Assembly (NCBI RefSeq): GCF_900188435.1
Contig: NZ_FYFA01000001.1
Location: 620,001-684,000, forward strand
Length of the DNA stretch: 64,000 nt
Direction: 5' to 3'
Source of the DNA: Marinobacter sp. es.048
GTDB taxonomy: Bacteria > Pseudomonadota > Gammaproteobacteria > Pseudomonadales > Oleiphilaceae
The position numbers and the translations under genes were made by a program. The notes under the pieces were generated by a model, which ran no database searches, had not been told where the DNA came from, and saw only the letters and a program-made list of their open reading frames with translations. This document shows, one piece after another, positions 14,973 to 51,438 of this stretch (positions are counted from its first letter, which is position 1; each line of letters begins with the position of its first letter).

Positions 14973-15080
14973 GGGCCATGTTGGCAGGCGTTCCGAAAAC
15001 CGCTGCAAGTACGTCCCTGTGCGCTTGCTCTCCGCCATCCTTGGCTCCGAGCATTTTCGGAACACCTGCCAACATGGCCC
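14973..15080 (-). repeat. Intergenic long-hairpin element, copy 1
   Basis: Outer stem of 27 bp with one mismatch (14973-14999 with 15054-15080). Read on the minus strand, the core carries the family marks: a GCC-AAGGAT-GGC hairpin, then CAAGCGCACAGGGACGTAC as the second hairpin, then CAGCGG leading into the closing TTTTCGG arm. It lies in the divergent gap between the TetR and monooxygenase genes. Confidence 0.85.
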
Positions 15081-15158
15081 CCGGACATTGGAACAAGCCT
15101 GCCGCCGGGGCCAAGTATCAGTCAACGTAGGCCATTTGCTGCTTCGTTGGTATGCAGC

Positions 15159-15190
15159 TGTCTACCCACCTGTGTATACATGTGTCTACC
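15159..15190. promoter_or_regulatory. Candidate operator/promoter of the flavin monooxygenase
   Basis: Direct repeats TGTCTACC at 15159-15166 and 15183-15190 flank the palindrome TGTATACA (15173-15180), which can also act as a -10 element. It lies 64 bases upstream of the monooxygenase start in the gap shared with the TetR gene. The rest of the 303-bp gap is hairpin copy 1. Confidence 0.4.
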
Positions 15191-15253
15191 GGCCATGATG
15201 ACCCGCCGGACAACAACAGACAAGGCCAGGCAGGCCAACGCAGGAGTGCAGCA

Positions 15254-16837
15254 ATGACACAGAACACACAGATCGCCATCATCGGCACCGGCTTCTCCGG
15301 CCTGGGCATGGCCATCAAACTCAAGGAAGCCGGTTACAACGACTTCGTGATCCTGGAGCAGAGCGACGACATTGGCGGCACCTGGCACCAGAACCACTAC
15401 CCCGGGTGTGCCTGTGATGTGCAGTCGGCGCTCTACTCCTTCTCCTTCGAACAGAACCCGAACTGGAGCCGGATGTATGCCCAGCAGCATGAGATCAAGG
15501 CCTACCTGAAGCACTGCGCCGAGAAATACGGGCTGATCGAGCATATCCGGCTAAACACCTATGTGGCCGGGGCGCGATTTGACGAGAACCACCAGCGGTG
15601 GACCCTTGAAACCTGCGATAGCCCGGCGCTGTGGGCTTACATGCAGGAGAACGGAGTGAAACCGGGTGAACGGTTGGATCGCACCGATAAAAGACTGCCG
15701 GAGTTCAGCTTGTTGACGGTGGACGTCCTGGTGTCCGGGATGGGGGGATTGAGCACGCCGGCCTATCCGGAGATCAAGGGGATTGAATCCTTCACTGGCA
15801 AACGTTTCCACTCCCAGGACTGGGACCATGACTACGATCTGCGCGGCAAGCGGGTGGCGGTGATCGGCACCGGTGCTTCGGCCATCCAGTTTGTTCCGGA
15901 GGTGGCGAAGCAGGCTGCAAGGCTGGACCTTTACCAGCGCACGCCGCCCTGGATTATGCCCAAGCCGGATCGGGCCATCCGGCCGCTGGAAAAGCGGCTG
16001 TTCCGGATGTTCCCGCAAACACTCAATGCCTTCCGGCAGAGTATTTACTGGTCGCTCGAGGCGCGGGTGCTGGGCTTTGTGGGTAACCCCCGTATTCTGA
16101 AGCTGGGTGAACTGCAGGCCCGCCGGCATATTCGCAGCCAGATTCCGGACAAGGCGCTGCGCAAAAAGGTCACCCCGGATTTTCATTTCGGCTGCAAGCG
16201 GGTGCTGATCTCCAACAACTACTATCCGGCGCTGGCACAGGATCATGTGGACGTTGTGACCGAGGGCATCCGTGAGGTCCAGGGCAACACCGTGATCGAC
16301 GGCCAGGGCAACGAGCGGCAGGTGGATTGCATCATCTACGGCACCGGTTTCAGGGCCCAGGACCCGATTCCCGCGGGCATGATCTTTGGGCGACATGGTC
16401 AGGATTTGCTGGATGCCTGGAAGGACGGCGCCGAAGCCTACAAAGGCACCACCCTCAGTGGCTTCCCGAATTTCTTAATGCTGATGGGACCGAACACCGG
16501 CCTCGGCCACAGCTCCATGGTGTATATGATTGAAAGTCAGATCCAGTATGTGCTGGATGCCCTCCAACAGATGCACCGGCAGCAATGGAGCAGCATGGAA
16601 GTGAAGCCGGACGCCCAGAGCCGCTACAACGCATCCATTCACGCGAAACTGGGCGACTCCGTGTGGCAAACCGGTTGTAAGAGTTGGTACGTCAACGAAA
16701 ACGGCAAGAACACGACGCTATGGCCGGGCTTTACCTGGCAATTTCGGCATCAGACACGGCGCTTCGACGCAGAGCAGTACCTTTGTAAAGGCACCAGTGA
16801 CAGTGTTGCAGGAGTCGATCCTGCCATGGCCCTCTAG
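15254..16837 (+). CDS. Flavin-containing monooxygenase, Baeyer-Villiger type
   Basis: A 527-residue enzyme with an N-terminal FAD Rossmann motif GTGFSG (11-16), the GGTWHQNHYPGCACD block, the Baeyer-Villiger fingerprint FTGKRFHSQDW (180-190) and a second NADPH-binding motif VIGTGASA (near 203-210). Such enzymes insert oxygen next to ketones or oxidise heteroatoms using NADPH. Residues 130-165 form an insert not usual in the family. The ATG at 15254 has AGGAG at good spacing; an upstream start at 15152 would run through the operator. Substrate unknown; control by the divergent TetR protein is likely. Confidence 0.9.
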   Translation: MTQNTQIAIIGTGFSGLGMAIKLKEAGYNDFVILEQSDDIGGTWHQNHYPGCACDVQSALYSFSFEQNPNWSRMYAQQHEIKAYLKHCAEKYGLIEHIRLNTYVAGARFDENHQRWTLETCDSPALWAYMQENGVKPGERLDRTDKRLPEFSLLTVDVLVSGMGGLSTPAYPEIKGIESFTGKRFHSQDWDHDYDLRGKRVAVIGTGASAIQFVPEVAKQAARLDLYQRTPPWIMPKPDRAIRPLEKRLFRMFPQTLNAFRQSIYWSLEARVLGFVGNPRILKLGELQARRHIRSQIPDKALRKKVTPDFHFGCKRVLISNNYYPALAQDHVDVVTEGIREVQGNTVIDGQGNERQVDCIIYGTGFRAQDPIPAGMIFGRHGQDLLDAWKDGAEAYKGTTLSGFPNFLMLMGPNTGLGHSSMVYMIESQIQYVLDALQQMHRQQWSSMEVKPDAQSRYNASIHAKLGDSVWQTGCKSWYVNENGKNTTLWPGFTWQFRHQTRRFDAEQYLCKGTSDSVAGVDPAMAL

Positions 16838-16953
16838 GATCGGATCAGCGGGGGCATTCAGCCGGCTTTTAACGGTGGATAAGTTGCGTTTTGGCCCGGA
16901 TGGCCAATACTTAAGGCAACGGTCTTGCCGCTCTCGGCCAAGGATGTCCCCCA

Positions 16954-18015
16954 ATGAAGCTGTTTCACTGCGGCCGATGCGCCAACCTGCTGTATTTCGA
17001 AAACAGCTGCTGTACCAGTTGCGGAGCAAGCCTTGGCTTCGCGCCGGATGTTATGGATCTGGTGGCGATCGACCCGAAGGGTAACGATACCTGGGAAGAG
17101 GTCACCGCTGGCGATCAATACCGTCTATGTAGCAACTACCAGAACCAGGGCGCCTGCAACTGGCTGGTGCCCGTCTCTGATTCACACGTCTTCTGTGTTG
17201 CCTGCCGTCTTAATCGCACCATTCCCGATCTGAGCACCTTCCAGAACCATGATCTGTGGGTGCGGCTGGAAAAAGAGAAACGTCGCCTGGTCTACTCACT
17301 GCTGCGCCTCAAGCTACCTTGCGAGCCCCGGCAGGAAGACCAATACGGCCTGAACTTCGATTTTCTGGCCGACCAGCCGGCCATGTTTGATGAACGCGCG
17401 AAGGTAAAAACCGGCCACGCCAATGGCGTGATCACCATGAACATTGCCGAGGCAGACCCGGTGGAACGGGAGCGGATGCGCAGCCAGATGGCCGAGCCCT
17501 ATCGCACTGTTTTGGGGCACTTCCGTCACGAATCGGGCCATTATTACTGGGATCTTCTGGTCCGGTCCGGGCCATGGCTTGGGCCGGTTCGGGAGATGTT
17601 TGGTGACGACACCAGGGACTACAGACAGGCCATGGACCAGCATTACCAGTATGGCCCGCCCGGTGACTGGCAGAGCTGGTACATCAGCGCCTATGCCAGC
17701 AGCCATGCCTGGGAAGATTGGGCCGAGACCTGGGCACATTACCTGCATATGGTGGATACATTAGAGACTGCCTGGCAGTTCGGGATGCGGGTGAACGCCC
17801 GGCAGCGCCCGGTAATGAATAGCGAACCAGACCCTGCGTTTGATCCCTACCAGGCCGACGATTTCGATGCACTGATCAAGCACTGGTTACCCCTGACGCT
17901 TGCGCTCAACAGCCTTAACCGAAGCATGGGGCATGACGATGCCTACCCCTTCGTGCTTGCGGCTCCCGTGGTGGAGAAGCTCCGCCTGGTACACCGAATA
18001 GCTCACGGTGGTTAA
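16954..18015 (+). CDS. Zinc-ribbon and putative zinc metallopeptidase, first gene of the amidoligase operon
   Basis: A 353-residue soluble protein. The N-terminus carries paired cysteines (Cys6/Cys9, Cys19/20/23, later Cys59/68 and Cys81/84) that look like one or two zinc ribbons. HESGH at 192-196 is a zincin-like HExxH motif, followed by YYWDLLV and an SHAWEDWAETWAHYLHM block that would supply further ligands. This matches the Pfam putative zinc-binding metallopeptidase family (PF15887). The stop overlaps an ATG of the next frame (TAATG), and the gene leads a run of ligase and transglutaminase genes, so it may process or remove their product. Its substrate is unknown. Confidence 0.85.
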   Translation: MKLFHCGRCANLLYFENSCCTSCGASLGFAPDVMDLVAIDPKGNDTWEEVTAGDQYRLCSNYQNQGACNWLVPVSDSHVFCVACRLNRTIPDLSTFQNHDLWVRLEKEKRRLVYSLLRLKLPCEPRQEDQYGLNFDFLADQPAMFDERAKVKTGHANGVITMNIAEADPVERERMRSQMAEPYRTVLGHFRHESGHYYWDLLVRSGPWLGPVREMFGDDTRDYRQAMDQHYQYGPPGDWQSWYISAYASSHAWEDWAETWAHYLHMVDTLETAWQFGMRVNARQRPVMNSEPDPAFDPYQADDFDALIKHWLPLTLALNSLNRSMGHDDAYPFVLAAPVVEKLRLVHRIAHGG

Positions 18016-18029
18016 TGAAAGGACCCCAA

Positions 18030-19490
18030 ATGAAAAAGAACAAATCGATTGATTGGAAAAACTACGATCCCAATGACTTCTTCGATGAACTGATTGCCGC
18101 CAAGGGCAAACCCCGGCCTGCGGCCACGGCTATTACCGACTACCTAGGCAACCTTGGTTCCGAAGAGATCCAGGCGCGCCAGCAGGCTGCCGAACTGGCG
18201 ATACTGGAGATGGGGATCAGCTTTACCATCTACAGTGAGGGCGAAAATATCGACCGGGCCTGGCCCTTCGACATCATTCCCCGGGTGATCTCGCTTAGGG
18301 AGTGGGAAACCATTGAGCAGGGCCTGGCGCAGCGGCTGACGGCCCTCAACATGTTCATCAACGATATCTACAACGACCAGAACATCGTCAAGGACAAGGT
18401 GATCCCCAAGTACGTGTTCGCCAACTCCAAGAACTTCCGCGAGCAGTGTCGTGGATTTACGCCGCCATTGGGGGTCTGGGCACACATCTGCGGATCGGAC
18501 CTGGTGCGGGATAAAGACGGTACCGTGTATGTCCTTGAGGACAACTTGAGGGTTCCCTCGGGTGTCTCCTACATGCTGGAAAACCGGCAGCTGACCAAAC
18601 GGGTGTTCCCGGAGCTGTTCGGCAACACCAATATCCTGCCGGTGGATGACTACACCAACCAGCTGTTCGACATGCTGGCGTCAATTTCGCCCCGGCCACA
18701 GGACCACCCGAAAATTGCGGTGCTGACGCCGGGCATTTTCAACTCCGCCTATTTTGAGCATTCCTTCCTGGCTCAGCGCATGGGCGCCGAGCTGGTAGAG
18801 GGGGCCGACCTGGTGGTTGGCGAGGACGACTTTGTCTACATGCGCACCGTCGAGGGGCTTGAGAGGGTGGATGTGATCTATCGCCGCATTGATGACGATT
18901 TCCTGGATCCGGAAGAGTTTCGCGCCGATTCGACTCTGGGCGTACCGGGACTGATGCGGGCCTGGCGCAACGGCAAGGTTGGCCTGGCCAATGCGCCAGG
19001 TGCCGGCGTTGCCGACGACAAGGTCATCTACGCGTTCGTTCCGGACATGATCCGTTACTACCTGGATGAGGAGCCCATCATCCCGAACGTGCCCACCTGG
19101 ATGTGTGTGAACAAGCAGGACCAGGAGTATGTGCTTGAACATCTTGATGAACTGGTCGTCAAACCGGCGAACGAGTCCGGGGGCTACGGCATGCTGGTTG
19201 GGCCGCATTCCACCAAGAAGCAGCGCGCCGAGTTTGCCCGGCTGATCAAGAAGAACCCGCGCAACTACATCGCCCAACCCACATTGAGCCTGTCTGTGGC
19301 TCCCACCCTTTGCGATGAGGGCCTGGCGCCCCGACACCTGGATCTGCGGCCCTTCGTGCTGCAGGGCGTGAGAACCTATGTCACGGCCGGCGGGCTGACA
19401 CGAGTGGCGATGCGAAAAGGCTCCCTGGTGGTGAATTCTTCCCAGGGCGGTGGAAGCAAGGATACCTGGATCGTGGACGAGGAGAATTGA
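18030..19490 (+). CDS. Circularly permuted ATP-grasp protein (type 2), stand-alone
   Basis: A 486-residue protein of the circularly permuted ATP-grasp family (older names DUF404/DUF407). Visible marks: WPFDIIPRVIS, GVWAHICGSDLVRDKDGT and EDNLRVPSGVSYMLENR in the first half, then ELVVKPANESGGYGMLVG and the acidic loop in the second half. The family is predicted to form amide bonds using ATP, but I know of no proven substrate. The ATG at 18030 has AAAGGA six bases before it, better than the overlapping ATG at 18015. It ends two bases before the next start, so translation is coupled. Confidence 0.92.
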   Translation: MKKNKSIDWKNYDPNDFFDELIAAKGKPRPAATAITDYLGNLGSEEIQARQQAAELAILEMGISFTIYSEGENIDRAWPFDIIPRVISLREWETIEQGLAQRLTALNMFINDIYNDQNIVKDKVIPKYVFANSKNFREQCRGFTPPLGVWAHICGSDLVRDKDGTVYVLEDNLRVPSGVSYMLENRQLTKRVFPELFGNTNILPVDDYTNQLFDMLASISPRPQDHPKIAVLTPGIFNSAYFEHSFLAQRMGAELVEGADLVVGEDDFVYMRTVEGLERVDVIYRRIDDDFLDPEEFRADSTLGVPGLMRAWRNGKVGLANAPGAGVADDKVIYAFVPDMIRYYLDEEPIIPNVPTWMCVNKQDQEYVLEHLDELVVKPANESGGYGMLVGPHSTKKQRAEFARLIKKNPRNYIAQPTLSLSVAPTLCDEGLAPRHLDLRPFVLQGVRTYVTAGGLTRVAMRKGSLVVNSSQGGGSKDTWIVDEEN

Positions 19491-19491
19491 T

Positions 19492-20430
19492 GTGCTTTCA
19501 CGTGTAGCGGAACGACTGTACTGGATGGCCAGATATCTTGAGCGGGCCGAGAACAACGCCCGGATGATCATGGCCTTTAATTCCCTGGCGCTGGATATGC
19601 CCCGGGAAACCCAACTGTCCTGGAAGGGGCTGGTGGCGGTGACGGGCATGGGCGCATTGTTCGACCAGCACCACCAACGGGCCGATGAGCGAAATTGCGT
19701 GAAGTTTCTGGTGGCCGACGGCTACAACTCGAGTTCCATAGCTTCCTGCATCAAGGCCGCCCGCGAGAATGTCCGAACCACCCGGGACCAGGTTCCGACC
19801 GACGCCTGGGAGGTGATCAACGAGCTTTACCGGTACATTCTTGAGCATGTAGATCAGGGCGTTGGTAAACGGGCGAGGTACGAATTCCTCAACGAAATCG
19901 TGGGTCGCTGCCAGATGCTCAATGGCTTGCTGGCCGGGTGTATGAGCCACGATGCCGGGTACGATTTTATCCGGGTCGGGCGCAACCTGGAGCGGGCGGA
20001 CATGGCCACGCGGCAGATTGAAGTCGGCGCTTTGCAGTTCCTCGATGGCTGGGATGGCACCGAAACCTACGGCGGGTTGTTGTGGACCAGTGTCCTGCGT
20101 TATCAGAGTGCCTTCCAGATGTACCGTCACAACGTGCGGCGCAAGGTCAGCGGGCCTCTGGTTATTCGCTTCCTGCTGCAGAACGAGCCGTTCCCTCGAT
20201 CGGTACTGCACAGCCTCAGCGAAGTGGCCGGGGCTCTCGGCCGCCTGCCAAGGAACGAGATACCGTTACGCACCGCGTTGCAGGCGGTACGTCACACCCG
20301 GGAGGGCGACGTGGATGCGCTGATCCGCAAGGAAGACGTGATCCTGTTCCTGGAAAAACTGCAGTTGGAAATCGGTGAGCTTCACGACGATATTGCAGAG
20401 ACCTGGTTTCCTGTCTACGAGACAGCCTGA
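19492..20430 (+). CDS. Alpha-E domain protein
   Basis: A 312-residue all-helical alpha-E (DUF403) protein, opening with VLSRVAERLYWMARYLERAENNARM, the family's typical N-terminus. The real start is the GTG at 19492 with GGAG upstream. An in-frame GTG at 19450 would lie inside the preceding ligase gene. The conserved Arg/Glu pairs recur through the chain. Alpha-E proteins nearly always occur beside or fused to circularly permuted ATP-grasp proteins, as here, and are thought to assist them; their chemistry is unknown. Confidence 0.92.
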   Translation: MLSRVAERLYWMARYLERAENNARMIMAFNSLALDMPRETQLSWKGLVAVTGMGALFDQHHQRADERNCVKFLVADGYNSSSIASCIKAARENVRTTRDQVPTDAWEVINELYRYILEHVDQGVGKRARYEFLNEIVGRCQMLNGLLAGCMSHDAGYDFIRVGRNLERADMATRQIEVGALQFLDGWDGTETYGGLLWTSVLRYQSAFQMYRHNVRRKVSGPLVIRFLLQNEPFPRSVLHSLSEVAGALGRLPRNEIPLRTALQAVRHTREGDVDALIRKEDVILFLEKLQLEIGELHDDIAETWFPVYETA

Positions 20431-20464
20431 AACTCCCAATTTTTTCGCCTGCGAGATAGGTTCC

Positions 20465-23400
20465 ATGTCGATTCATGTTGCCCTGAGTCATATCACCCAC
20501 TATCGCTATGAGCGCCCGATCACACTGGGCCCTCAGATAGTTCGTTTGCGGCCCTGTCCGCACGCGCGAACCCGGATCCTGAGCTACTCGCTGAAGGTCG
20601 AGCCCGACGGTTATTTCCTTAACTGGCAACAGGACCCGCAGGCCAATTACCTGGCCCGCCTGGTGTTCCCCGAAAAAACGGGCGAGCTGAAGATCACGGT
20701 GGACCTCGTTGCCGAGATGGCCGTGATCAACCCGTTCGATTTCTTTCTGGAACCCCGGGCAGAGACCATTCCGTTTGACTACGAGGAATGGCAGACGGCA
20801 GAGCTGGCGCCTTATTTACAGAAACTGCCGGAGACACCGGAATTCCGTAAGTGGATGGCCACCATAGACCGCAAGGAAACCCCCAGCGTGGATTTCCTGG
20901 TGGGTGTGAACCAGAGCCTTGCTGACCGTATTGATTACCTGATCCGGATGGAGCCGGGTGTCCAGACCCCGGAGGAAACCCTGAAAAAGGGCTCCGGCTC
21001 CTGTCGGGATTCGACCTGGTTGCTGGTGCAGACGCTCCGGCATCTGGGGCTGGCGGCGCGCTTTGTGTCCGGCTACCTGATTCAGCTCAAGGCTGACCAG
21101 AAAGCACTGGATGGCCCTTCGGGCGCGGAGGAAGACTTCACCGATTTGCACGCCTGGTGCGAAGTCTTTCTGCCGGGCGCCGGTTGGGTGGGGCTGGATC
21201 CGACGTCCGGCCTGTTTGCCGGAGAAGGGCATATCCCGCTGGCCTGCAGCCCGGATCCGTCCTCGGCGGCGCCAATTACCGGCATGGTTGAGGAGTGCGG
21301 GGTCGAATTCGAGCACCAGATGAGCGTCCAGCGCATCTGGGAAGCACCTCGGGTGACCAAACCCTATACCGAGACCCAGTGGCAGCGCATCGTTGGGCTG
21401 GGCCATGACGTCGACCAGCGTCTGACAGAACTGGATGTACGTCTGACTCAGGGCGGTGAGCCTACCTTCGTGGCGAATCACGACCGGGACGAGCCGGAGT
21501 GGAACACCGAGGCCATGGGCCCCACCAAGCGCAAGAAGGCCATCGAGCTCTATCACCGGATGCGGGACCGCTACGGCGCTGGCGGGCTGGTTCATTTCGG
21601 CCAGGGTAAGTGGTATCCGGGAGAGCCGCTGCCCCGATGGTCCCTGAACTGTTACTGGCGCAAGGATGGCGAGCCGATCTGGCGGGACGAGCGCTGGCTG
21701 GCGGATGAGCGCATCGAAGGCAACGCAAGCCCGGAAGATGCTCACAGGTTTTTGTCGGCCTTGGCGAAAGAGCTTGGTGTTGATGAAAAACAGCTGTTCC
21801 CGGGGTTCGAGGATGCTTTTTATTACTTGTGGCGGGAACGACGGCTGCCGGTCAACGTCGATCCTTTCGATGCGAAACTCGAGAATGCCCTGGAGCGCAA
21901 GCAGCTTCAGCAGATTTTCAGCCGGGGCCTGGACGAACCCGTCGGCTACGTGCTCCCCCTGCGTGTCACTGAAAAGGCACAGGCATGGGAAACGGGGCCC
22001 TGGTTCCTGCGCAGCCAGCGCTGTTACCTGATTCCGGGCGGCTCCCCGATGGGCCACCGGCTGCCGCTGGATAGCCAGCCCTGGGTGGAAGAAGCGGATT
22101 ACCCCTGGATCCACGAGCAGGACCCCTTTGCGCCCCGTGGCCCTTTGCCCGGAAAAGAGGAAATCCGGCAATGGAATAGCGGCCAAGCTGGCCAGTCGTC
22201 TCCGGAGGTGGAGCTGCCCAAGAAAGGAAAGTCAGCACCCGAGGTTGTTCGCACCGCCCTGTGCGTGGAGCCCCGGGAAGGCATTCTTCGTATTTTTATG
22301 CCGCCGTTAGAAAAGCTGGAGCCTTACCTTGCCCTGGTTTCCGCCATCGAGAAAACCGCCAAAGAGCTTCAGCAGCCGGTCCTGCTTGAGGGGTATGAGC
22401 CACCCTCGGATCACCGGTTGAGTCATTTCCGCATCACGCCGGACCCCGGGGTGATCGAAGTGAATGTGCAGCCGGTTCGGACCTGGGACGAGCTGGTTGA
22501 ACAGACCGAGACGCTCTACGCGGACGCCTACGAATGCCGTCTCACCTCCGAGAAGTTCATGATGGACGGCCGTCATACCGGCACCGGTGGCGGCAACCAT
22601 TTTGTGCTGGGTTCGCAGAAGGCAGAGGATTCCCCGTTCCTGAGGCGTCCGGATCTGCTGCGCAGTCTGATCAGCTACTGGCATAACCACCCCAGCCTGT
22701 CCTATCTGTTTTCCGGCCTGTTTATTGGCCCCAGTTCCCAGGCGCCGCGGATTGATGAGGCGCGCAACGACCATGTGTTCGAAATGGAACTGGCGTTCCG
22801 GGAGATGGAGCGGTTATGCCCTGTGGGCAAAAAAGTCGCGCCCTGGGTGGTGGACCGCTTGCTCCGGGACCTGCTTACGGACGTGACCGGCAATACCCAC
22901 AGGGCCGAGTTCTGTATCGACAAGCTCTATTCCCCGGACGGCCCGGGTGGGCGTCACGGTCTGCTCGAATTGCGGGCCTTCGAGATGCCACCCCATGCCC
23001 GCATGAGCCTGACCCAGCAATTGCTGCTGCGGGCGCTGGTGGCCCGATTCTGGGAGCAGCCCTACAAACCCAGCGGGCTGGTTCGCTGGGGAACCGAGCT
23101 GCACGACAGGTTCCTGCTACCTCACTATGTCTGGCAGGACTTTGAGGACGTCATCGACGATATGAAGGCCCAGGGTTATCCGCTCGAGAGCGAGTGGTTC
23201 GCGCCCCATTTCGAGTTCCGGTTCCCCCGGATCGGCGATTACAGGGTCAAGGGCATAACCCTTGAGCTGCGCTCGGCTCTGGAGCCCTGGCATGTGACCG
23301 GAGAACACGGCGCGATCGGCGGCACCGCCCGCTACGTGGATTCTTCCCTGGAGCGTTTGCAGGTGAAGGTACGCGGCGCTGCCCCGGATCGTTACCAGAT

Positions 23401-23764: not shown

Positions 23765-23853
23765 GATGCCTGGACGTGTGGTTTGATGCTGGCTCCGGAG
23801 AGTAGAAAGCGGCTATGCTTCCAGCTCACTGACTAACGGAGCCTGAATTCAAG

Positions 23854-27430: not shown

Positions 27431-27437
27431 ACACGGA

Positions 27438-41513: not shown

Positions 41514-41558
41514 AAAGGCTCCTGTGGGATTGGTGATGCCCGAAAAAAGCCTAGCATA

Positions 41559-42944: not shown

Positions 42945-43135
42945 ATTTCCTCACGGTTCGTCAGTGTGCGCTCAAGGATAGAGTGCCTCTGTCGGTCATG
43001 AATACCGCTGTGACAAAGGTTTAATGCCACTTTCATGAAATGCGGGCAAGTTATAACGAACCCTTTTATACGCGGGGAAAGCGATTAACAATATGGGTGT
43101 TTTGCGAAATCCGGTGTGCTTTCGTTACTCCCGCG

Positions 43136-44773
43136 TTAGCTCTCGTGTATGGCATGCCAGAGGTCGTCCTCCCGGAACGCCCTGTGCTCCGCTTCCAGTT
43201 TCAGCAAATGCGCCAGGGCTGACCGTGCCGCGAGGCCGTGGATGGCCACCGGAACATCATCATAGGCTTTGGCAGTAAGGGCTTTAAGATCCACCGGCGT
43301 AAGGGCTTCCAGCGCACGGGCCACCTTGTGTTCGCGGGAGAGGCGGTGGGTGATGAGGAAATCGATCACCGCTTCAGGATGCCCCATCAGGAACCCGTGT
43401 GCCGGCGCAATGTAACGAACAGACTCGGCCAGCAACTCGTAGAGCGACTCGATGTAGGCCTTCATGTCGCCGTCCGGCGGATTAATCACCACCGTTGAGC
43501 CCTGCATGATGTGGTCACCGGAAAACAGCAGCTTCTGGTCGACCAGTAGAAAGCAAAGGTGGTTCGACGCATGGCCCGGGGTATGCAGCACTTTCAGAAC
43601 CCCGGCTTCGGTAACAATCAGATCGCCGTGCTCCGGCTCGTCGTCGGCCCGGAACGTCTGGTCCTGGCCGGCACCCGGAGGCGCCGGCCAGCCGAACACC
43701 CGACAACCGGTGCGCTCTTTCAGCACAGCGACGGCTGGCGAATGGTCCTGGTGCGTGTGGGTCACCAGAACCTGGTCAATGACGCCACCGGTCACCTCCA
43801 GAATCCGCTCAATGTGCGACTCGTTGGCGGGTCCGGGATCAATCACCGTAAAGCGTTCATGGCCCAGAATGTAAGTGTTGGTACCCGGCCCGGTCATCAT
43901 GCCCGGGTTGGGCGCCGTCAGACGGACGACCCTGGCGGCAACCTCTACCGCCTCACCGGGAATAATCTCCGCCCGTGTGGAACCTTCGCCCTCCGGATCC
44001 AGCTTGGCCGCCTCATCGTAGGCCGGCGCACCCGGTTCCAGCGTCACCGGCTTGCCCTTTTTCATCGCCGGCCAGGGCTTACTTGGATAGGGCTCCGGCG
44101 GATTGGCATGGGCGTAGCGCATCAGCGCCTCAGTGGTGTCGAAATCACTGAGCACCCGCAGCGTCCGGATCGTCGGCAACCCCAGCAAACATTGACCATT
44201 GCGATGATCCTCAAGGGCCTGCTCCGGCCGGATCCAGACATGATCAATGGTTTCGACCCCGTCGTGCCCGGCCAGTTGCCCTTCAGGAGCCGGCGTCACG
44301 AAAAACCGTGTATCGAAACGCCGTGGTGGCCCCGGCGGCGTGATCCAGTGGCCGAGATAGGCCAGCCGGTCCAACGGAATCGCCAGGCCGTGCATTTTAC
44401 ACAGACTGGCCAGGGACAGATCGCCGTCGAACACCGATTTCCGGTCAGCGTGGACCGGATGATCCCCGGCTATGGGATTGCCCTGCTTATCAACGGCAAC
44501 CAGAATGCCGGATTCCTCAAAACACTCCCGAACCGCCGCCAACATATAATCGGCGCCGCCTTCATCAACACTCATGGTCTGGCTGATTTCGGCGTCTGCT
44601 GTCCCGACAATATGCTCCTGGCCGTGAGTTTCATTTTCCTCGACCCTCCCGCCGGGGAACACAAAATAGCCGGGCATAAACACGGCGTCCCAGGTGCGTT
44701 GCAGCAGCAGGACTTCAAGGCCTTCGGCCGTATCACGAACCAGAACGAGTGTGGCAGCAGGGCGAATTTCCAT
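43136..44773 (-). CDS. Nudix hydrolase fused to an LACTB2-like metallo-beta-lactamase-fold hydrolase
   Basis: A 545-residue fusion. Residues 1-220 are a Nudix domain, but the Nudix box is split: GGRVEE (41-46) and RECFEESG (82-89) are separated by an insert of about 35 residues, as in NUDT19-type CoA diphosphatases. Residues 285-540 are a metallo-beta-lactamase domain with HTHQDH (339-344), HTPGHASNH and SGDHIMQG, followed by a C-terminal helical part like LACTB2. Both active sites look intact. The ATG at 44773 with TGGAG is the true start; the frame to 44878 reads through hairpin copy 3. Confidence 0.85.
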   Translation of the reverse strand: MEIRPAATLVLVRDTAEGLEVLLLQRTWDAVFMPGYFVFPGGRVEENETHGQEHIVGTADAEISQTMSVDEGGADYMLAAVRECFEESGILVAVDKQGNPIAGDHPVHADRKSVFDGDLSLASLCKMHGLAIPLDRLAYLGHWITPPGPPRRFDTRFFVTPAPEGQLAGHDGVETIDHVWIRPEQALEDHRNGQCLLGLPTIRTLRVLSDFDTTEALMRYAHANPPEPYPSKPWPAMKKGKPVTLEPGAPAYDEAAKLDPEGEGSTRAEIIPGEAVEVAARVVRLTAPNPGMMTGPGTNTYILGHERFTVIDPGPANESHIERILEVTGGVIDQVLVTHTHQDHSPAVAVLKERTGCRVFGWPAPPGAGQDQTFRADDEPEHGDLIVTEAGVLKVLHTPGHASNHLCFLLVDQKLLFSGDHIMQGSTVVINPPDGDMKAYIESLYELLAESVRYIAPAHGFLMGHPEAVIDFLITHRLSREHKVARALEALTPVDLKALTAKAYDDVPVAIHGLAARSALAHLLKLEAEHRAFREDDLWHAIHES

Positions 44774-44822
44774 AAGACTCCAGATACGTTCGTTATTATT
44801 CAGTGCGCGAACAGAGTACGAA

Positions 44823-44934
44823 CGATGGCTGGGAAAGGCCTTCCAAAACTGTCTGTCGCCACGGATGGCGACAGTCAAGCGTCAGATGGACGTGCCGCCA
44901 GGAGCGTGTTTTGGAAGGCCTTTCCCAGCCGTCG
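44823..44934 (+). repeat. Intergenic long-hairpin element, copy 3
   Basis: A perfect 23-bp outer stem (44827-44849 with 44908-44930), extended by a few more pairs. The core has a CTGTCGCC-ACGGAT-GGCGACAG hairpin (44853-44874), then TCAAGCGTCAGATGGACGTGC, a GGAGCG segment and the closing GTTTTGG arm. It lies in the divergent gap between the Nudix-MBL and thioesterase genes. Confidence 0.9.
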
Positions 44935-45066
44935 CTCCGTCAAAGCTCAAAGCGCCGGTGCACAGAACCAAGATAACCGATTTGAAGGGCAAGATCCCAA
45001 GATGAACACTAAAGTCGAACAGCGTATGATTCGCCCCTATAGCCCCCAGTGAAAACAGGAACCCCC

Positions 45067-45492
45067 GTGGCCCGAATCAAACTCTCCTTCCCGGACGACG
45101 TCTTCTGCTTCGAAACCAGAATGCCCGTCAGAATCACCGACATCAACGGCGCCAACCACCTTGGTAACGACGCCCTGATCTCCATGCTCTCCGAAGCCCG
45201 GGCCCAGTTCCTGGTCAGTTACGGCATCCAGGAAGCCAGCAAGGACGGCACCGGCATTATCGTTACCGACCTGGCCACCATGTACCAGTCCGAGTCCTTC
45301 TTCCCGGAAATGCTGCGCTTTGAAGTGGGTCTGATGGACTTCAACAAGTATGGCGGGGATTTCGTGTTCCGGGTCACCAAGGCCGAGAGCGGCCAGCCCG
45401 TGGCAATGGCGAAGTATGGCTTCGTCTTCTTCAACTACCACCGTAAGGAAGTGGTGCCGGTGCCTGAGAGTTTCCGCTCACGCTTTGCCTGA
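45067..45492 (+). CDS. Hotdog-fold thioesterase
   Basis: A 141-residue protein with the 4HBT-like pattern: RMPVRITDINGANHLGNDALISMLSEARAQFL, where the Asp/His-containing loop and following helix hold the active site, then strands VTDLATMYQSESFF and MAKYGFVFFNYHRKEVVPVP. It probably hydrolyses acyl-CoA or a similar thioester in the cytosol. I favour the GTG at 45067 (CAGGA upstream); a GTG at 45049 would add six residues. The end overlaps the converging MATE gene by 15 bases. Confidence 0.85.
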   Translation: MARIKLSFPDDVFCFETRMPVRITDINGANHLGNDALISMLSEARAQFLVSYGIQEASKDGTGIIVTDLATMYQSESFFPEMLRFEVGLMDFNKYGGDFVFRVTKAESGQPVAMAKYGFVFFNYHRKEVVPVPESFRSRFA

Positions 45493-46815
45493 GGATACTT
45501 CGGCCTTCAGGCGCGTCATGCCGGCACGGTAAAAGCTGTAAGCCATGGCGCCGGCGAACAGATTGCCCACCAGTGCGCCGCTCATAAGCCCGTAGACGCC
45601 GTTGATCTGGCTGCCGATCCAGAGCAGGGGCAGGAAACACAGGAACAGGCGAAGCGTGGACACCAGCAGGGCCCGCATCGCCAGGCCCAGGGCATTGCAC
45701 ACCGACACCATCAGCATGCACACGCCCAGACCGCTGTAACTGAGCGGCACCCGTACCAGATAGCCGGCAAGAACCTCCTGAACATCACTGTCGCTGGAGA
45801 AAAGCTCCGATACCAATCCGGAAGCGACAACCCAGGTGAGGCCAATGGCCAACTGCCAGACCACCACAAACCGGACTGCGAGGCGCACCAGTTTACGGAT
45901 CTGCTCGATATCGCCGGCACCCAGCATGCGGCCAATCATCGGCGGCATCGACATGGTCAGGGCCAACACCACCACGATGGAGAAAAATTCCAGGCGGGTG
46001 CCCAGGCCCCAGGCAGCCACGGCGGCCGAGCCGAAGCCGGCCACCAGGGCTGTTGCCAGCATCGCCGAGACAGCCGGCATCAGCTGGCTCACCATAGCCG
46101 GGGCCATGATGCCATTTAGTTGCTTCAGGGCCTTCCATAGAGCGAGCTCGCGCAGATCAAACCGGACCCAGTGGCGTTTCAGGAGCTTCGGATAGATCAC
46201 CAGGCAGCCAATACCAAAAGAGGTGATGGTTGCCCAGGCAGCGCCGGGCAGTCCCCAGCCGAAAACAAAGATGTAGAGCGGATCCAGGGCGATGTTGGTC
46301 AGGCTTGTGGCCACCATCATGTACCCCGGCAGCTTGGTATCACCGTGGGACCGGCAAACGCTGTAGCCAAAGTACAGGAAGGCCCCGGTCCAGGCGGCCA
46401 TCAGCCAGGGAATCCAGTACTGACGGACGAGTGGCAGCAGTGCATCTTCCGCCCCCAGCGCAGTCATTATGTGACTCTGCAGAAACCACAGGGCCACGCA
46501 GATGACGAACACGAGGCTGCCGCCGACGGTTATGATCAGGCCGCCAAGCCGATAGGCGCGAAGTTCATCGCCGGCACCCAGTGTGCGGGAAACGATCGCC
46601 GTGGTCGCAATACCCAACCCCACCTGAAGGCCGATGATCAGTTGCTGCATCGGCAGGGTGAAGCCCAGCGCCGCCAGCGGATCCCGTCCAAGCTGACCCA
46701 CAAAGGCACTGTCGGCCAGCTGGAAGGTCATCAGGGACAGCACCCCGAAGAGCATGGGCCAGGTCATGCTGTAAAGCTGGCGGGCCAGGGATGGGTTCTG
46801 GGTGGTGGTCTGCAC
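45478..46815 (-). CDS. MATE family efflux transporter
   Basis: A 445-residue inner-membrane protein with twelve hydrophobic segments in two homologous halves. MATE marks visible are the opening MTWPMLFGVLSLMTFQLADSAFVGQLG and the matching PAMVSQLMPAVSAMLATALVAGFGSAAVAAWGLG of the second half. It would export cationic drugs or metabolites using an ion gradient. It starts with GTG at the edge of the gap holding hairpin copy 6. Confidence 0.92.
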   Translation of the reverse strand: MQTTTQNPSLARQLYSMTWPMLFGVLSLMTFQLADSAFVGQLGRDPLAALGFTLPMQQLIIGLQVGLGIATTAIVSRTLGAGDELRAYRLGGLIITVGGSLVFVICVALWFLQSHIMTALGAEDALLPLVRQYWIPWLMAAWTGAFLYFGYSVCRSHGDTKLPGYMMVATSLTNIALDPLYIFVFGWGLPGAAWATITSFGIGCLVIYPKLLKRHWVRFDLRELALWKALKQLNGIMAPAMVSQLMPAVSAMLATALVAGFGSAAVAAWGLGTRLEFFSIVVVLALTMSMPPMIGRMLGAGDIEQIRKLVRLAVRFVVVWQLAIGLTWVVASGLVSELFSSDSDVQEVLAGYLVRVPLSYSGLGVCMLMVSVCNALGLAMRALLVSTLRLFLCFLPLLWIGSQINGVYGLMSGALVGNLFAGAMAYSFYRAGMTRLKAEVSSGKA

Positions 46816-46887
46816 GGGGCGTCAGGGGCCTTCGGTTTGTCTTGGAGGCGAGATTCTAACAGGTCTGGCTTTTGGTGTTAGCAAAGT

Positions 46888-47063
46888 CGCCGGAACGACT
46901 TATCAGGAGACGCCGTGAACCCCGCAAGCGGGTCCTGCCCGCAATCATAGATTGCGGTCGTTCGGCTGCGCATGAAGCGCTGCTTCAAATACGCTTGCCT
47001 CACCCCTGGGGGCTTGGCATTGCCATCCTTGGCAATGCACACTCCTGCTGAGTCGTTCCGGCG
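46888..47063 (-). repeat. Intergenic long-hairpin element, copy 6 (long form)
   Basis: This fills most of the 303-bp gap between the MATE and tpx genes. A perfect 13-bp outer stem (46888-46900 with 47051-47063) continues with CAGGAG / CTCCTG after a short interruption. Inside are a hairpin with GCATTGCC / GGCAATGC arms and the family loop AAGGAT on the minus strand (47017-47038), a CAAGCG segment, and two extra hairpins not seen in the short copies (one perfect, 46939-46957, stem CCGCAATC; one CCCGC / GCGGG near 46920-46932). It is a longer variant of the same family. Confidence 0.75.
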
Positions 47064-47118
47064 CCTTTGCCCAGACCGTTGGTGGTGTTTCCAACTGCCA
47101 GGTTTTGACTTTGAGCTC

Positions 47119-47616
47119 TCAAAGCACCTTCAGCGCTGCATCGTAATCCGGCTCGTCCTTGATCTCACCAACCAGCTGGCTGTGCAGAACCTTGTTGTCT
47201 TCATCCAGTACAACCACCGCCCGGGCGCAGAGACCGGCCAGGGGGCCGTCTTGCATGGCGACGCCGTAGTCCTGCTGGAAGCTGTAGTTCCGGAAGGTTG
47301 ACAGGGTTTCAACGTTTTTCAGACCTTCGGCACCGCAGAATCGGGCGGCTGCGAAGGGCAGATCGGCGGAAACGACAAAGACCACGGTGTTGTCGAGGTT
47401 GCCGGCCTTTTCGTTGAATTTCCGGGTGGAGGCGGCACAGACGCCGGTGTCGATACTGGGAATGATGTTCAGGATTTTGCGTTTGCCGGCCCAGTTATCA
47501 AGTTTCACTTCTTCCAGGCCGCTGTTGGTCAGCGTGAAGGGAGGGGCGGTGTCGCCTGCCTCGAGAAATTTGCCGCTCACGTCAATAGGGTTGCCGTCCA
47601 GGGTTACGTTGCTCAT
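47119..47616 (-). CDS. tpx: Thiol peroxidase
   Basis: A 165-residue atypical two-cysteine peroxiredoxin. The peroxidatic Cys60 lies in [16 protein letters not shown] and the resolving Cys94 in ARFCGAEG, matching Cys61/Cys95 of E. coli Tpx. It reduces alkyl and lipid hydroperoxides using thioredoxin. AAGGAG precedes the ATG. No partner gene is adjacent. Confidence 0.95.
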
Positions 47617-47684
47617 GGGGTACTCCTTGTCGTCTGGTTTAGAGTCTTACGTACTCTGTGTAGACCACTTTGGATGATTTTTCC

Positions 47685-48905
47685 TTAACTGCTGGTTGCG
47701 CTTTGTGGTTCGAAACCTTTGGCAGGATAACGCTGAACCAGCAGCAGATAACAGCCCATGGCAATCGCAGCGCAGGCGGCGATGATGGTGGCCATGACCA
47801 GGGAGGTGCCGTCGTGCAGGTGGCCGACGAGCATGCCGGCAACGGCGGCGACCGCCATCTGTGCGAAGCCGAACAGGGCGGAGGCAGAGCCGGCCATAGT
47901 GGGGAAGTTTGTCAGCGCGCCGGCCATGGTCTGGGGCAGGACCATGCCGGTGCCCATCATGAATAGGGCCTGGGGCAGAATGACTGCCCAGACGTTGAAC
48001 ACTTCGCTCAGTGCCAGCACGGCCATCAGACTCCCTCCAGCCACGGCGATAACCAGGCCACGAACCAGGATCTGGTCGGGCAGCAGGCGTCGGCCAAGAC
48101 GGACGGCTGTCAGGTTACCGATAATGAAGCCGGCCACCATGCAGGCGAAGTAGAGGCCGAACTGCTCGGTTGGCACGCCCAGAAAATCAATCAGTACGAA
48201 CGAGGAACCGGACAGGAAGGCGAACAGGCCGGAGAAGATCAGGGCATTGGTCAGGGTGTAGCCGACGAAGCTGATGTCCTTCGCGATGATTCGATAGTTC
48301 CGCAACAGGCTGCAGAGTTTCAGGGATTGGCGATGCTCCGGACGCATGGGCTCGGGAATCCCGAAGGCCACCACCAACGCCATCACCAGTGCATAGCCAC
48401 CCAGTGCCAGGAACACCGATGACCAGCCGAGGCTGGCGGTCAGCAGACCGCCAATGGTCGGTGCAACTGCCGGCGCCAGAGCCATGATGCTGGCCAGGAT
48501 TGCCAGGATCTTGGCGGCTTCCTGGGGCGTATAGATATCCCGAATCGCCGCCCGTCCCAGAACCGGACCGGCAGAACCGCCAAGCGCTTGCAGAAAACGG
48601 CACAGAATCAGCGTTTCGATGTTCGTCGCCAGGGCACAGCCAATACTGGCAATGGCGAAAAGTACGAAACCGCCAATCATGATCGGTTTGCGACCAAACC
48701 GGTCCGCCAACGGACCGCAAATCAGCTGGGCAATAGCAAAGCCCACCAGATATAGGCTCAAAGTCAGTTGAACCTGATCGGTACCGGTTCCGAAGTCTGA
48801 ACCAATCTGTGGCAGTGCCGGCAAATACATATCTGTTGCCAGCGGCCCAAGAGCCACAGCGGCGGCTAGAAGTATCGTTGTCCAGACACTGGTTAAAGTC
48901 AGCAT
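47685..48905 (-). CDS. Bcr/CflA family MFS drug efflux transporter
   Basis: A 406-residue protein with twelve membrane helices. The Bcr/CflA pattern is visible: LGPLATDMYLPALPQIG in helix 1, GPLADRFGRKPIMIGG (MFS motif A) in loop 2-3 and LGRAAIRDIYTPQEAAK in loop 4-5. It is a proton-driven exporter of drugs or metabolites. AGGAAAA precedes the ATG. A LysR gene lies upstream on the same strand across hairpin copy 4. Confidence 0.92.
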   Translation of the reverse strand: MLTLTSVWTTILLAAAVALGPLATDMYLPALPQIGSDFGTGTDQVQLTLSLYLVGFAIAQLICGPLADRFGRKPIMIGGFVLFAIASIGCALATNIETLILCRFLQALGGSAGPVLGRAAIRDIYTPQEAAKILAILASIMALAPAVAPTIGGLLTASLGWSSVFLALGGYALVMALVVAFGIPEPMRPEHRQSLKLCSLLRNYRIIAKDISFVGYTLTNALIFSGLFAFLSGSSFVLIDFLGVPTEQFGLYFACMVAGFIIGNLTAVRLGRRLLPDQILVRGLVIAVAGGSLMAVLALSEVFNVWAVILPQALFMMGTGMVLPQTMAGALTNFPTMAGSASALFGFAQMAVAAVAGMLVGHLHDGTSLVMATIIAACAAIAMGCYLLLVQRYPAKGFEPQSATSS

Positions 48906-48939
48906 GGTTTTCCTGATGCGTTATCTCAAAGGTCCAACA

Positions 48940-49007
48940 GGCCGGGTCAAGCGTCACAGGGACGTGCCGCAAGGAGCGTGTTTTGGGGAGCCCTGCCCGA
49001 CCCGGCC
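48940..49007 (+). repeat. Intergenic long-hairpin element, copy 4 (5'-deleted)
   Basis: A short copy. It keeps TCAAGCGTCACAGGGACGTGC, CGCAAGGAGCGTGTTTTGG and the 3' arm, but has lost most of the 5' arm and the first inner hairpin. The remaining ends still pair (GGCCGGGTC at 48940-48948 with GACCCGGCC at 48999-49007). It lies between the LysR and Bcr/CflA genes. Confidence 0.75.
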
Positions 49008-49094
49008 GACAAGGGAGTAAACGCAGTCTAGGGCAGAGGCAGAGGGAAGATAACGGCAAGAAGGCTCATACAACCTATGAGCAAAACTGATTGA

Positions 49095-50006
49095 TTAGCT
49101 GTTCAGGCCATTGAGCGTAGCGGCGACGGCATTAACCTGATTACGCAGCCACTTGTGGGCAGGGTCGTTCTGATTGCGGCGATGCCACAACATCAGCAGG
49201 GTAAAGGGTTTGAAATCAAAGGGCAGGGGAACCCAGGCAAAGTCGCGGAGTAAGTGTTTGCTCATGCCTTCCGGCGCCGTGGCGAGCATATCCGTGCCCC
49301 GCAGAAATTCTGGCAGGCCGGAAAAATTAGAGACCGTCACCACATTGCGGCGAACCAGACCGCGGGTATCCATGGCCGTTTCCACCGTTGGCTTCTCCCC
49401 AGTGGCAAACAGCAGGGCAATATGGTCCGCCTTCAGATATTCCGTCAGATCCGCCGGCGGTTTCCGGAATGCGGGATCATAGAACACCACCATCCGATCC
49501 GCCATCAGCCCCCGCTGCATAATATCTGTCGCTTCCGGCGCATGCGGCGAAATAACCAGATCACACACATCCTTTCGCAACAGATCGGCCCGGGGAATGC
49601 CGGACGGAATCACCTGGAGACTGATGCCCGGAGCCTCCCGCCGCAAGGTACGCACCAGCCCGGGCAACAGCAGATCCCGCTGGTAGTCATTGGCAGCAAT
49701 GGTGAACGTGAACTCGGCCGTGGCCGGACTGAACGGCGGGCCTGAGGACAGCGACTGCAGGTCATCCAGAATCTGTCGAATATGCGGCCCGGCCTGAAGA
49801 GCGTAGCGGGTGGGTACGATGCCACGCCCGGATTTTACGAACAGGGGGTCCCCCAGTGCCTGGCGCAGCCGCTCCAGCGTATGGCTCACCGCCGACTGGG
49901 TAACACCCAGCCGAACCGCGGCACGGGACACGCTGCCTTCATCAAGCACCGCCAGAAACGTGCTCAGGGCACGGAAATCCAGGTTGAATGTATCAATCGG
50001 GTTCAT
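49095..50006 (-). CDS. LysR family regulator
   Basis: A 303-residue LysR protein with the N-terminal helix-turn-helix (LSTFLAVLDEGSVSRAAVRLGVTQSAVSHTLERLRQALGDPLFVKSGRGIVPT, residues 14-66) and an effector domain with IPSGIPRADLLRKDVCDLVISP. It lies upstream of, and on the same strand as, the Bcr/CflA exporter gene, which it may regulate. The ribosome binding site is weak. Confidence 0.9.
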   Translation of the reverse strand: MNPIDTFNLDFRALSTFLAVLDEGSVSRAAVRLGVTQSAVSHTLERLRQALGDPLFVKSGRGIVPTRYALQAGPHIRQILDDLQSLSSGPPFSPATAEFTFTIAANDYQRDLLLPGLVRTLRREAPGISLQVIPSGIPRADLLRKDVCDLVISPHAPEATDIMQRGLMADRMVVFYDPAFRKPPADLTEYLKADHIALLFATGEKPTVETAMDTRGLVRRNVVTVSNFSGLPEFLRGTDMLATAPEGMSKHLLRDFAWVPLPFDFKPFTLLMLWHRRNQNDPAHKWLRNQVNAVAATLNGLNS

Positions 50007-50039
50007 GAATGGGAGTGTAACCCGATGTTTGGAGAGGCG

Positions 50040-50513
50040 CTACGGCGCAGCCGTTTCCTGAATGAATGTCTGAACGGCTTCTGCCAGCTCGCTGAACCAG
50101 GGGTTGTAGGTCAGCCGGCTGGTAAACACCGGGCGTTCCGTGTCGTGCCAGGCGCTGAACCAGAGATCTCGCTCCGGCAATTGCCGGCAACCCTCGAGAG
50201 AGATGTTGTTCGGTTCCAGGCATCGTTGCAGCGGCGCGCCCAGGCCATAGAGATCGTTATCCGGCGCAATCAGCAGGGATTGGTGAGAGAACTCCAGGAT
50301 ATTGGCGTCAGGCAGATAGCTGTTCAGAAAACGGATGCGTTTGTCCGCCTGCCTGTCCGGCCAGTTTTTACGGGTGTCCCGAAAAATCATCATGGCATTC
50401 CCGGGATTGGTAAACCGCTCCCGGAACTGAGCGACGAGATAGTCCAGATTGATCACCGAGTCGGCTGTGGTCGCCAGCACCAGCAGAACGAGTAAATTCC
50501 TGAGGATAGTCAT
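50040..50513 (-). pseudogene. Probable C-terminal fragment of an alpha/beta hydrolase
   Basis: A 157-residue frame. The first 18 residues look like a signal peptide, yet LLVLLVLATTADSVINLDYLVAQFRERFTNPGNAMMIF reads like the late strand and acid residue (Asp in ADSVIN) of an alpha/beta hydrolase. DANILEFSHQSLLIAPDNDLYG and RLTYNPWFSELAEAVQTFI then match the C-terminal His region and last helix of that fold in my recollection. The lid, oxyanion and nucleophile (GxSxG) parts are absent and no room remains upstream, since a HAD gene starts 133 bases away. No good ribosome binding site is visible. Alternatively it is a small secreted protein of unknown function. Confidence 0.5.
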
Positions 50514-50646
50514 AGCCGGTGAGTGGCTTTCGCTCCTTTCGACATTAACGTAGTCATCGTTGACTCTGTTGAGTGATCGTTCAAATCCCGATACTGTAAC
50601 CTCAGTACACGACCCCGAACCGCCTTCCGGATGAGGAGCCCCACCG

Positions 50647-51318
50647 ATGACCATGACCCTTGCTTTCGACGTTTACGGAACCCTGGTCGACCCCATGGGC
50701 ATGTCCCGCCTCCTGGCCGAAGATGCCGGCGACAGGGCAGAATCGGTAGCTGCTCTGTGGCGGGAGAAGCAGCTGGAGTTCTCCTTCCGAAAGGGCCTGA
50801 TGAAAGTCTACGAAGACTTCGGTGTCTGCACCCGCCAGGCTCTGCGCTACGCCATGGCCACTCACAAACTGACCCTGTCGGAAGAACGCGAAAATGCCCT
50901 GATGGCGGCTTACCTGTCCCTGCCCGCGTTTGGTGATGCCTTGCCGGCGTTAAAGAGTCTGAAAGTCGAGTATCCGTTGTTCGCATTTTCCAATGGCGGT
51001 TATCCGGCGCTGGAAAAGGTGCTGGGACATAACGATCTGTTGAACCAGTTTGAAGGTCTGGTCTCGGTGGATGACATCAAAAGCTTCAAACCCGATCCCG
51101 CCGTTTACACTTACGCCCGGAGAGCCACTGGTTCCTGGGAAAACCCCCTGTGTCTTGTGTCCAGTAACGCCTGGGATGTAATTGGGGCTCGAGCTGCAGG
51201 ATTACTCGCAATCTGGGTACAAAGGGACCCAGATAAAGTGTTTGAAGATTGGGGTATTCAGCCGTCTGCTGTAATCAAAAGCCTCTCTGAATTACCTTCA
51301 ACGCTGAAGACCCTCTGA
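50647..51318 (+). CDS. Haloacid dehalogenase type II (HAD hydrolase)
   Basis: A 223-residue HAD protein. Motif I is AFDVYGTLVD (Asp8 nucleophile, with Tyr in the position typical of type II 2-haloacid dehalogenases), motif II FAFSNGGYP, the Lys in KSFKPDP and motif IV SSNAWDVIGARAAGL. The SSNAWD form is characteristic of L-2-haloacid dehalogenases. GAGGAG precedes the ATG. The real substrate may be a haloacid or another small organic acid. Confidence 0.88.
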   Translation: MTMTLAFDVYGTLVDPMGMSRLLAEDAGDRAESVAALWREKQLEFSFRKGLMKVYEDFGVCTRQALRYAMATHKLTLSEERENALMAAYLSLPAFGDALPALKSLKVEYPLFAFSNGGYPALEKVLGHNDLLNQFEGLVSVDDIKSFKPDPAVYTYARRATGSWENPLCLVSSNAWDVIGARAAGLLAIWVQRDPDKVFEDWGIQPSAVIKSLSELPSTLKTL

Positions 51319-51330
51319 AGATAGAGGAGG

Positions 51331-51438
51331 CGGGTGTTGGGGAGAGCTTTCCAAAACTGTAGAGGGCCATGGATGGCCCGAAACAAGCGCACAGGGATGT
51401 GCTTGTAGCGTGTTTTGGAAAGCTCTCCCCAACACCTG
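51331..51438 (+). repeat. Intergenic long-hairpin element, copy 5
   Basis: The best-formed copy: a perfect 25-bp outer stem (51333-51357 with 51412-51436) plus two more pairs. Two perfect inner hairpins follow: GGGCCA-TGGA-TGGCCC (51364-51379), and CAAGCGCA / TGTGCTTG (51384-51405; one G-T pair), loop CAGGGA. Then TAGCG leads to the closing GTTTTGG arm. It lies between the converging HAD and PHA-synthase-like genes, where it could also stop transcription. Confidence 0.92.

Follow-up and report, generated by a model that had tools for sequence, protein, structure and literature searches.

What kind of element is a long intergenic hairpin whose outer stem has a different sequence at every copy? 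We asked this of a 64,000-nucleotide (nt) stretch of the Marinobacter sp. es.048 genome (NZ_FYFA01000001.1, positions 620,001 to 684,000; hereafter the window), where an original prediction made from the sequence had described six such hairpins sharing a two-hairpin core. We conclude that each copy probably belongs to the TwoAYGGAY class (Rfam family RF01731) and acts as a structured RNA module, which would dock one dimer of the protein CsrA. The support from our analysis consists of a covarying fold, strand-specific conservation, a loop signature, kinship with RF01731, and the presence of a csrA gene. We infer that the element is transcribed, is bound by CsrA, and has a regulatory effect.

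Copy number and covariation of the fold

Read on the strand that carries the ANGGA motifs (the ANGGA strand), the element consists of an outer arm, a GCC[ANGGAN]GGC hairpin, CAAGCG, a hairpin around CAC[ANGGAN]GTG, AGCG, and the other outer arm. The pattern of the second hairpin occurred at 20 exact places in the es.048 genome, versus 0 for the reversed pattern. These 20 matches and one further window copy (site 3, listed below) were the 21 copies on which we built a covariance model, R1. In the 4.06-Mb genome, R1 had 62 matches at E ≤ 1. We set aside four that mirrored a copy on the opposite strand, one with an E value of 0.54, and one of 31.3 bits situated beyond the stretches analyzed; at least 56 copies remained, located in intergenic gaps (a lower bound, 150 of 2,385 first-look candidates having been scored with R1). 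That there would be no further copies in the genome, which had been named as grounds for doubt, thus did not hold.

The outer stem had a median of 28 pairs (range, 20 to 34, among 231 stems), and the arms are unique to each copy yet about 98 to 99% paired. In the 21-copy alignment, 93.8% of the cells were paired, versus 68.1% in shuffles, and this value fell to 36.6 to 47.7% when the partners were slid. Two-sided changes were found at 28 of the 36 pairs. This alignment was made without structure, and 98.3% of its outer-stem cells were paired; in a model-fitted alignment of 116 further copies, the corresponding value was 99.0%, and two-sided changes were present at 34 of 36 pairs. The original prediction that the arms change together while the fold persists was therefore borne out, both on the 116 further copies and in place at orthologous sites (see below). 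The pairing was also beyond chance: none of 500 shuffles reached that of the 21-copy alignment.

Conservation also extended just beyond the arms. Among 203 copies, the 3′ flank read CtCCaAAGCcaG (log-likelihood ratio, 279 versus ∼31 shuffled) and the 5′ flank CcaAaGTtnG (133 versus ∼24 shuffled). These flanks can be paired by eye, and so the whole hairpin is probably longer than drawn here.

Strand-specific mispairs

When a palindrome is maintained as duplex DNA alone, G·U and A·C mispairs are expected equally often. We counted both with a stem search that weights them alike. The set comprised 50 of the 56 es.048 copies (those above 55 bits), 78 copies from relatives, and 113 of the 116 further matches (two long-insert forms and one cut-off copy were left out). 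These 241 copies became 232 after identical ones were removed, and 231 had a stem. On the ANGGA strand, the 6,459 cells included 165 G·U, 18 A·C, and 83 other mispairs. Because this set contains orthologs, its P value is too good, and the safer test is that on es.048 alone, where 49 copies had 38 G·U, 4 A·C, and 31 other mispairs (P = 5.7 × 10⁻⁸). In es.048, the G·U:A·C ratio was 23:2 and 15:2 on the two contig strands; by gene context, it was 9:2 for codirectional sense copies, 8:0 for antisense copies, 14:0 in convergent gaps, and 7:2 in divergent gaps.

An excess of G·U over A·C on one strand implies strand-specific folding rather than plain palindrome upkeep, and it fits folding as RNA most simply. 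Given this pattern, a DNA-only nucleoid or repair site, which had been among the options first considered, is unsupported; a transcribed RNA, another of those options, fits the covariation seen on the further copies and in place. The same count can serve as a simple strand test for any palindromic repeat.

Relationship to TwoAYGGAY RNA

The element had originally been left without a named family, but one exists, as is evident from genus matches over the cut-off for RF01731 (TwoAYGGAY). At a relaxed E value, RF01731 was named at the element in three of six loci (31.4 to 34 bits) and at 3 of 20 es.048 loci, window site 6 included (33.2 bits; cut-off, 43). It was found in 52 of 61 genus genomes, versus 0 of 14 controls, and 12 matches in 8 of the 61 were over the cut-off. 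On re-test, the gathering score was passed again at seven of eight loci (L307 failed), and a model of our own, R2, called the element at 10 of 10 RF01731 loci. The eight RF01731 matches that we compared by coordinates (in es.048 and in genomes G001, G017, G029, G033, G038, G042, and G054) coincided with R1 calls on the same strand.

Like TwoAYGGAY RNA (clan CL00106), the Marinobacter element has a long, poorly conserved outer stem around two apical AYGGAY-type loops, and congeneric copies reach the Rfam gathering score. Unlike it, the element has a shorter core (104 versus 168 model positions), has any base rather than only Y at the second loop position, scores under the cut-off in the window, and forms a dispersed family with at least 56 copies in one genome. 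It thus appears to be a compact, divergent, many-copy form of RF01731, and the kinship is well supported.

The TwoAYGGAY motif has been listed for human gut, Gammaproteobacteria, and Clostridiales (Weinberg 2010, PMC2864571) and is described as a candidate RNA of unknown function (PMC2864571, PMC4333381). Gardner and Eldai (PMC4333381) already proposed that it binds CsrA and noted its poorly conserved external stem. Hence, both the RNA class and the CsrA idea are already known; in the literature, covered mostly at the level of titles and abstracts, we found no description of such RNAs forming a dispersed family of many copies in Marinobacter.

Loops and CsrA

Both hairpins were found in 220 of the 231 copies. 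The second loop was ANGGAN in 215 of the 220, its variable positions being 2 and 6. In 225 copies, the median distance between the starts of the first two A.GGA motifs was 24 nt (range, 8 to 38). A high-affinity site for CsrA/RsmE (CsrA/RsmA) has been described as an ANGGAX hexaloop directly on a stem (PMC4005645), and the bridging range between CsrA sites is given as 10 to 63 nt (PMC7652899). The element accordingly carries the sequence signature of a CsrA/RsmA target, namely, two ANGGAN hexaloops on stems, spaced within the published bridging range. The es.048 genome had a single csrA match.

We picture the following mechanism as the most probable one. A transcript in the ANGGA direction would fold into a long outer helix, free in sequence although its pairing is required, around two short hairpins that present ANGGAN hexaloops ∼24 nt apart. 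A CsrA dimer has two RNA-binding faces, for which two such loops would be suitable, and each copy could then dock one dimer on any transcript that crosses the gap, either titrating CsrA or altering the fate of the transcript. Like the sponge RNAs CsrB/CsrC and RsmX/Y/Z, the element would place GGA motifs in the loops of CsrA/RsmE-type hairpins (PMC4005645); unlike them, it occurs as many dispersed two-site copies, not as one many-site RNA, and lacks a clear promoter signal. If intergenic gaps do carry dispersed CsrA-docking modules, the amount of free CsrA in a cell would be set not by CsrB-like RNAs alone but also by transcription of these gaps. Marinobacter, with a single csrA match and no fewer than 56 copies in es.048 and with many natural variants in the genus, would make the CsrA idea directly testable.

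The six sites in the window

All six of the sites originally claimed were present. The features are as follows.

14974..15077, minus strand, site 1: full copy, R1 score 94.1 bits
32036..32139, minus strand, site 2: full copy, R1 score 92.3 bits
44826..44933, plus strand, site 3: full copy in a divergent gap, R1 score 89.1 bits
46888..47063, minus strand, site 4: degenerate copy between MatE and Redoxin genes (both minus strand)
48940..49007, plus strand, site 5: deletion derivative, with part of the 5′ arm and the first hairpin gone
51334..51437, plus strand, site 6: full copy in a convergent gap, R1 score 106 bits
51331..51357, plus strand, site 6: 5′ outer arm in the RNA fold
51369..51374, plus strand, site 6: first hexaloop, ATGGAT (ANGGAN)
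51393..51398, plus strand, site 6: second hexaloop, AGGGAT (ANGGAN), unpaired in the fold
51412..51438, plus strand, site 6: 3′ outer arm in the RNA fold

The architecture ascribed to all six stood for sites 1, 2, 3, and 6, which are full copies, and not for the interrupted site 4 or the truncated site 5. As for the stem lengths given earlier, the 17 bp of copy 2 are the unbroken inner pairs, with a mismatched continuation beyond them, and the 25- to 27-bp stem assigned to "copy 5" was mislabeled and can only be that of site 6. RNA-fold z scores of the four full copies were −6.7 to −11.6, a range that also covers the six sequences folded in total. Energy folding closed the outer stem in each of the six and showed the second ANGGAN hairpin as drawn in sites 6 and 2.

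Site 1 lies on the leader side of a minus-strand TetR-family gene (TetR_N domain match) in a divergent gap, and site 2 lies in a divergent gap between an EamA transporter gene (minus) and a LysR gene (plus; both from Pfam). Beside site 1, G033 and G009 have an additional element that is absent in es.048; in G009, it is head to head with the site 1 copy. At site 4, the R1 match was weak and partial (46991 to 47041, minus strand, 20.5 bits, E 0.0055); the arms and parts of the hairpins are recognizable, and the second hairpin is interrupted by another repeat. Such a repeat, which carries CGCAATC..GATTGCG and GAAGC..GCTTC hairpins, is also inserted in the second hairpin of some other elements, including L161, in the G049 spacers between redox, MFS, and lysR genes. 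The element matches at L243 and L255 are 184 to 188 nt long, perhaps owing to a similar inserted repeat. At site 5, an R1 profile search of the window with filters off gave no match; its orthologs in G033 and G009 are full copies of 107 bits each.

Orthologous sites and exchange of cores

Copies persist at orthologous gaps in the genus (nearness of species was judged by the identity of syntenic stretches). The site 3 gap held the element in 18 of 33 genus spacers examined, and there the arms differ widely across species yet pair (484 Watson-Crick, 12 G·U, 6 A·C, and 7 other cells). Several paired changes at site 6 separate es.048, G033, and G009; at site 1, es.048 and G009 differ by one G-C to A-U paired change and one wobble. 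At site 2, where G033 and G009 carry the element with other arms and G039 is empty, the arms of es.048 and G033 are 56% identical and their cores 89%.

Since G039, whose alleles at sites 2 and 3 are empty, retains an arm-like stretch at both, we considered whether the arms derive from the target by inverted target duplication. This idea was dropped because G038, compared with its near relative G054, seems rather to have undergone a deletion between GGG repeats and because the empty site in the gap between redox and MFS genes contains neither arm. An R1-marked element is present in that gap in 7 of 34 genomes, all on one strand; es.048 and G039 are empty, and G033 and G009 have ∼187 bp that neither of those two has.

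Within es.048, an arm search found no stretch longer than 17 bp in common between copies, and we therefore rejected copy-and-paste of whole units. The cores were all different in 49 of 49 copies. Arm identity to the nearest paralog had a median of 0.72, versus 0.61 for shuffled arms, which reflects remaining position preferences. A short sequence of 20 to 30 nt, which may be a further small repeat, is common to the left flanks of four copies (C1:1016474, C1:1815935, C1:1825055, and C2:615958).

At site 3, four genomes (G064, G031, G057, and G010) have the core in inverted orientation between its arms. At site 6, the es.048 core is 96% identical to two other es.048 cores and 68 to 70% identical to those of its orthologs, while the orthologous arms are 82 to 89% identical to the es.048 arms; from these sequences, we read site 6 as one case of a core swap between sites. 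Among the 14 genomes printed for the gap between MFS and lysR genes, G039 keeps the arms and has lost the core, and the near relatives G001/G029 and G054/G038 differ in orientation, arms, and near flanks. The same gap contains an unrelated long hairpin whose loop is in opposite orientations in the near relatives G064 (L169) and G031 (L173); inversion of loops between palindromic arms may thus be a general phenomenon here. Close pairs of elements (≤400 bp apart) were head to head in 18 of 18 cases, with gaps of 56 to 232 bp.

Gene context and evidence against an RNA module

With a simple gene caller, none of 231 copies was inside a called gene; two es.048 copies overlap a called gene end by ∼30 nt. 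The 56 es.048 copies comprised 19 in convergent gaps, 14 antisense and 13 sense to codirectional genes, and 10 in divergent gaps. In the larger set, where 209 of 231 could be classed (14 were at an edge and 8 far from genes), there were 76 sense, 43 antisense, 48 convergent, and 42 divergent copies. The excess of sense copies (P = 0.003) is due in part to orthologs.

Several results weigh against the CsrA-docking RNA module. The near-equal sense and antisense counts in es.048 are one, and another is that upstream promoter scores showed no excess over shuffles for antisense and convergent copies and were only slightly above shuffles for sense and divergent copies. These promoter and orientation results are the main evidence against a simple RNA story: if the element does act as RNA, many of its copies must be transcribed by read-through or from antisense transcripts. 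At gathering scores (43 bits for RF01731), Rfam found nothing in the window, and RF01731 had no match at E ≤ 1 at sites 1 and 2. Energy folds of sites 1 and 3 lacked the second ANGGAN hairpin, and the core of L161 folded otherwise, with neither of its hairpins shown. Site 3 taken alone had just 12 G·U to 6 A·C mispairs. An automatic pick found ANGGAN in 174 of 220 first loops; of the other 46, 33 were CGGAGC, and many look like a wrongly picked hairpin. Finally, csrA was almost as frequent without the element (31 of 35 class genomes taken as element-free) as with it (44 of 45), and a search of the remaining element-bearing genome, G245, gave no csrA match; this co-occurrence is compatible with CsrA docking and not discriminating.

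The core swap and the inversions inside arms may explain the near-random orientation to genes. In an extended form of the CsrA reading, which we regard as possible but doubtful, the elements would be interchangeable docking cassettes. Swapping and inversion of their cores among dozens of intergenic palindromes would then rewire the CsrA network by exchange, not by point mutation, and any transcript that crosses a gap, sense or antisense, could be tagged for CsrA.

Alternative explanations

The element could instead be mobile DNA of the REP/BIME or MITE type, a nonautonomous palindrome moved by a transposase in trans and without host function. Its intergenic location and its high copy number (among 19 genus genomes, matches ranged from 3 to 133) resemble those of REP/BIME/REPIN palindromes; BIMEs are reported to alternate in orientation (PMC2817692), and all 18 close pairs here are head to head. 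The ∼187 bp in the redox-MFS gap of G033 and G009 look like an insertion, but imported DNA could explain them as well. A search of es.048 for Y1_Tnp (PF01797), positive in 5 of 14 control genomes, gave 0 matches (relatives and other recombinases were not searched), and a REP/RAYT element was rejected accordingly. REP-type palindromes also differ from the element in its stem of 28 median pairs, its unique arms, and its conserved loops. With no arm stretch above 17 bp shared, with different cores throughout, and with arms and fold kept in place across species, mobile DNA is unlikely. A single-stranded DNA hairpin used by a recombinase, as in integron attC sites, would also be strand specific, with a conserved core and free stems; a folded DNA strand would tolerate mispairs in the same strand-specific way, and the core swap at site 6 and the inversions would suit it. 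However, the fold persists at sites that stay fixed, the ANGGAN loops are left unexplained, and the GTTTTGG/CCAAAAC inner arms do not match attC boxes. We judge this explanation to be quite unlikely.

Replication template switching, which copies arm onto arm with no selected function, would account for perfect or near-perfect arms of unique sequence, for core inversion inside arms, and for the similar loop inversion in the unrelated G064/G031 hairpin. Such a process is strand blind, however, and should give equal G·U and A·C mispairs, not the 165 to 18 observed; because it also leaves the conserved ANGGAN loops unexplained, it is very unlikely. The least likely of the explanations we weighed is a bidirectional terminator or 3′-end stabilizer whose loops are irrelevant. 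Convergent gaps are the commonest single class in es.048 (19 of 56), but no T run follows the stem in the 20 copies printed, 14 of 56 copies are antisense to both neighbors and 10 are in divergent gaps, and a terminator has no need of ANGGAN.

Distribution

R1 matches were found in 19 of 19 genus genomes sampled (the range above includes mirror matches) and in 3 of 10 genomes representing the order outside this family. R2, applied to a sample of the class, had matches at E ≤ 10⁻⁶ in 46 of 276 genomes and 42 of 216 genera; because scoring was limited to 14 candidates per genome, copy numbers there are lower bounds. Most of the 10 loci printed from the class sample or related genomes combine this core with different arms. 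IS-like units in G129, G253, and G281 were examined and gave nothing firm. Several of the elements in G129 (L345 to L348) are found at the ends of contigs or in inverted order with a spacing of ∼0.9 kb and may be part of longer repeats. Among 80 stretches listed by a core-pattern scan of public genomes, most were from Marinobacter, with two from Vreelandella and two from other uncultured Gammaproteobacteria. Two copies from other families of the order, L109 (G023) and L110 (G021), form a subtype that is marked by CCCCC[ATGGAT]GGGTT together with the junction ACGGCGT and in which the stems differ and the loops are the same; window site 4 resembles this subtype.

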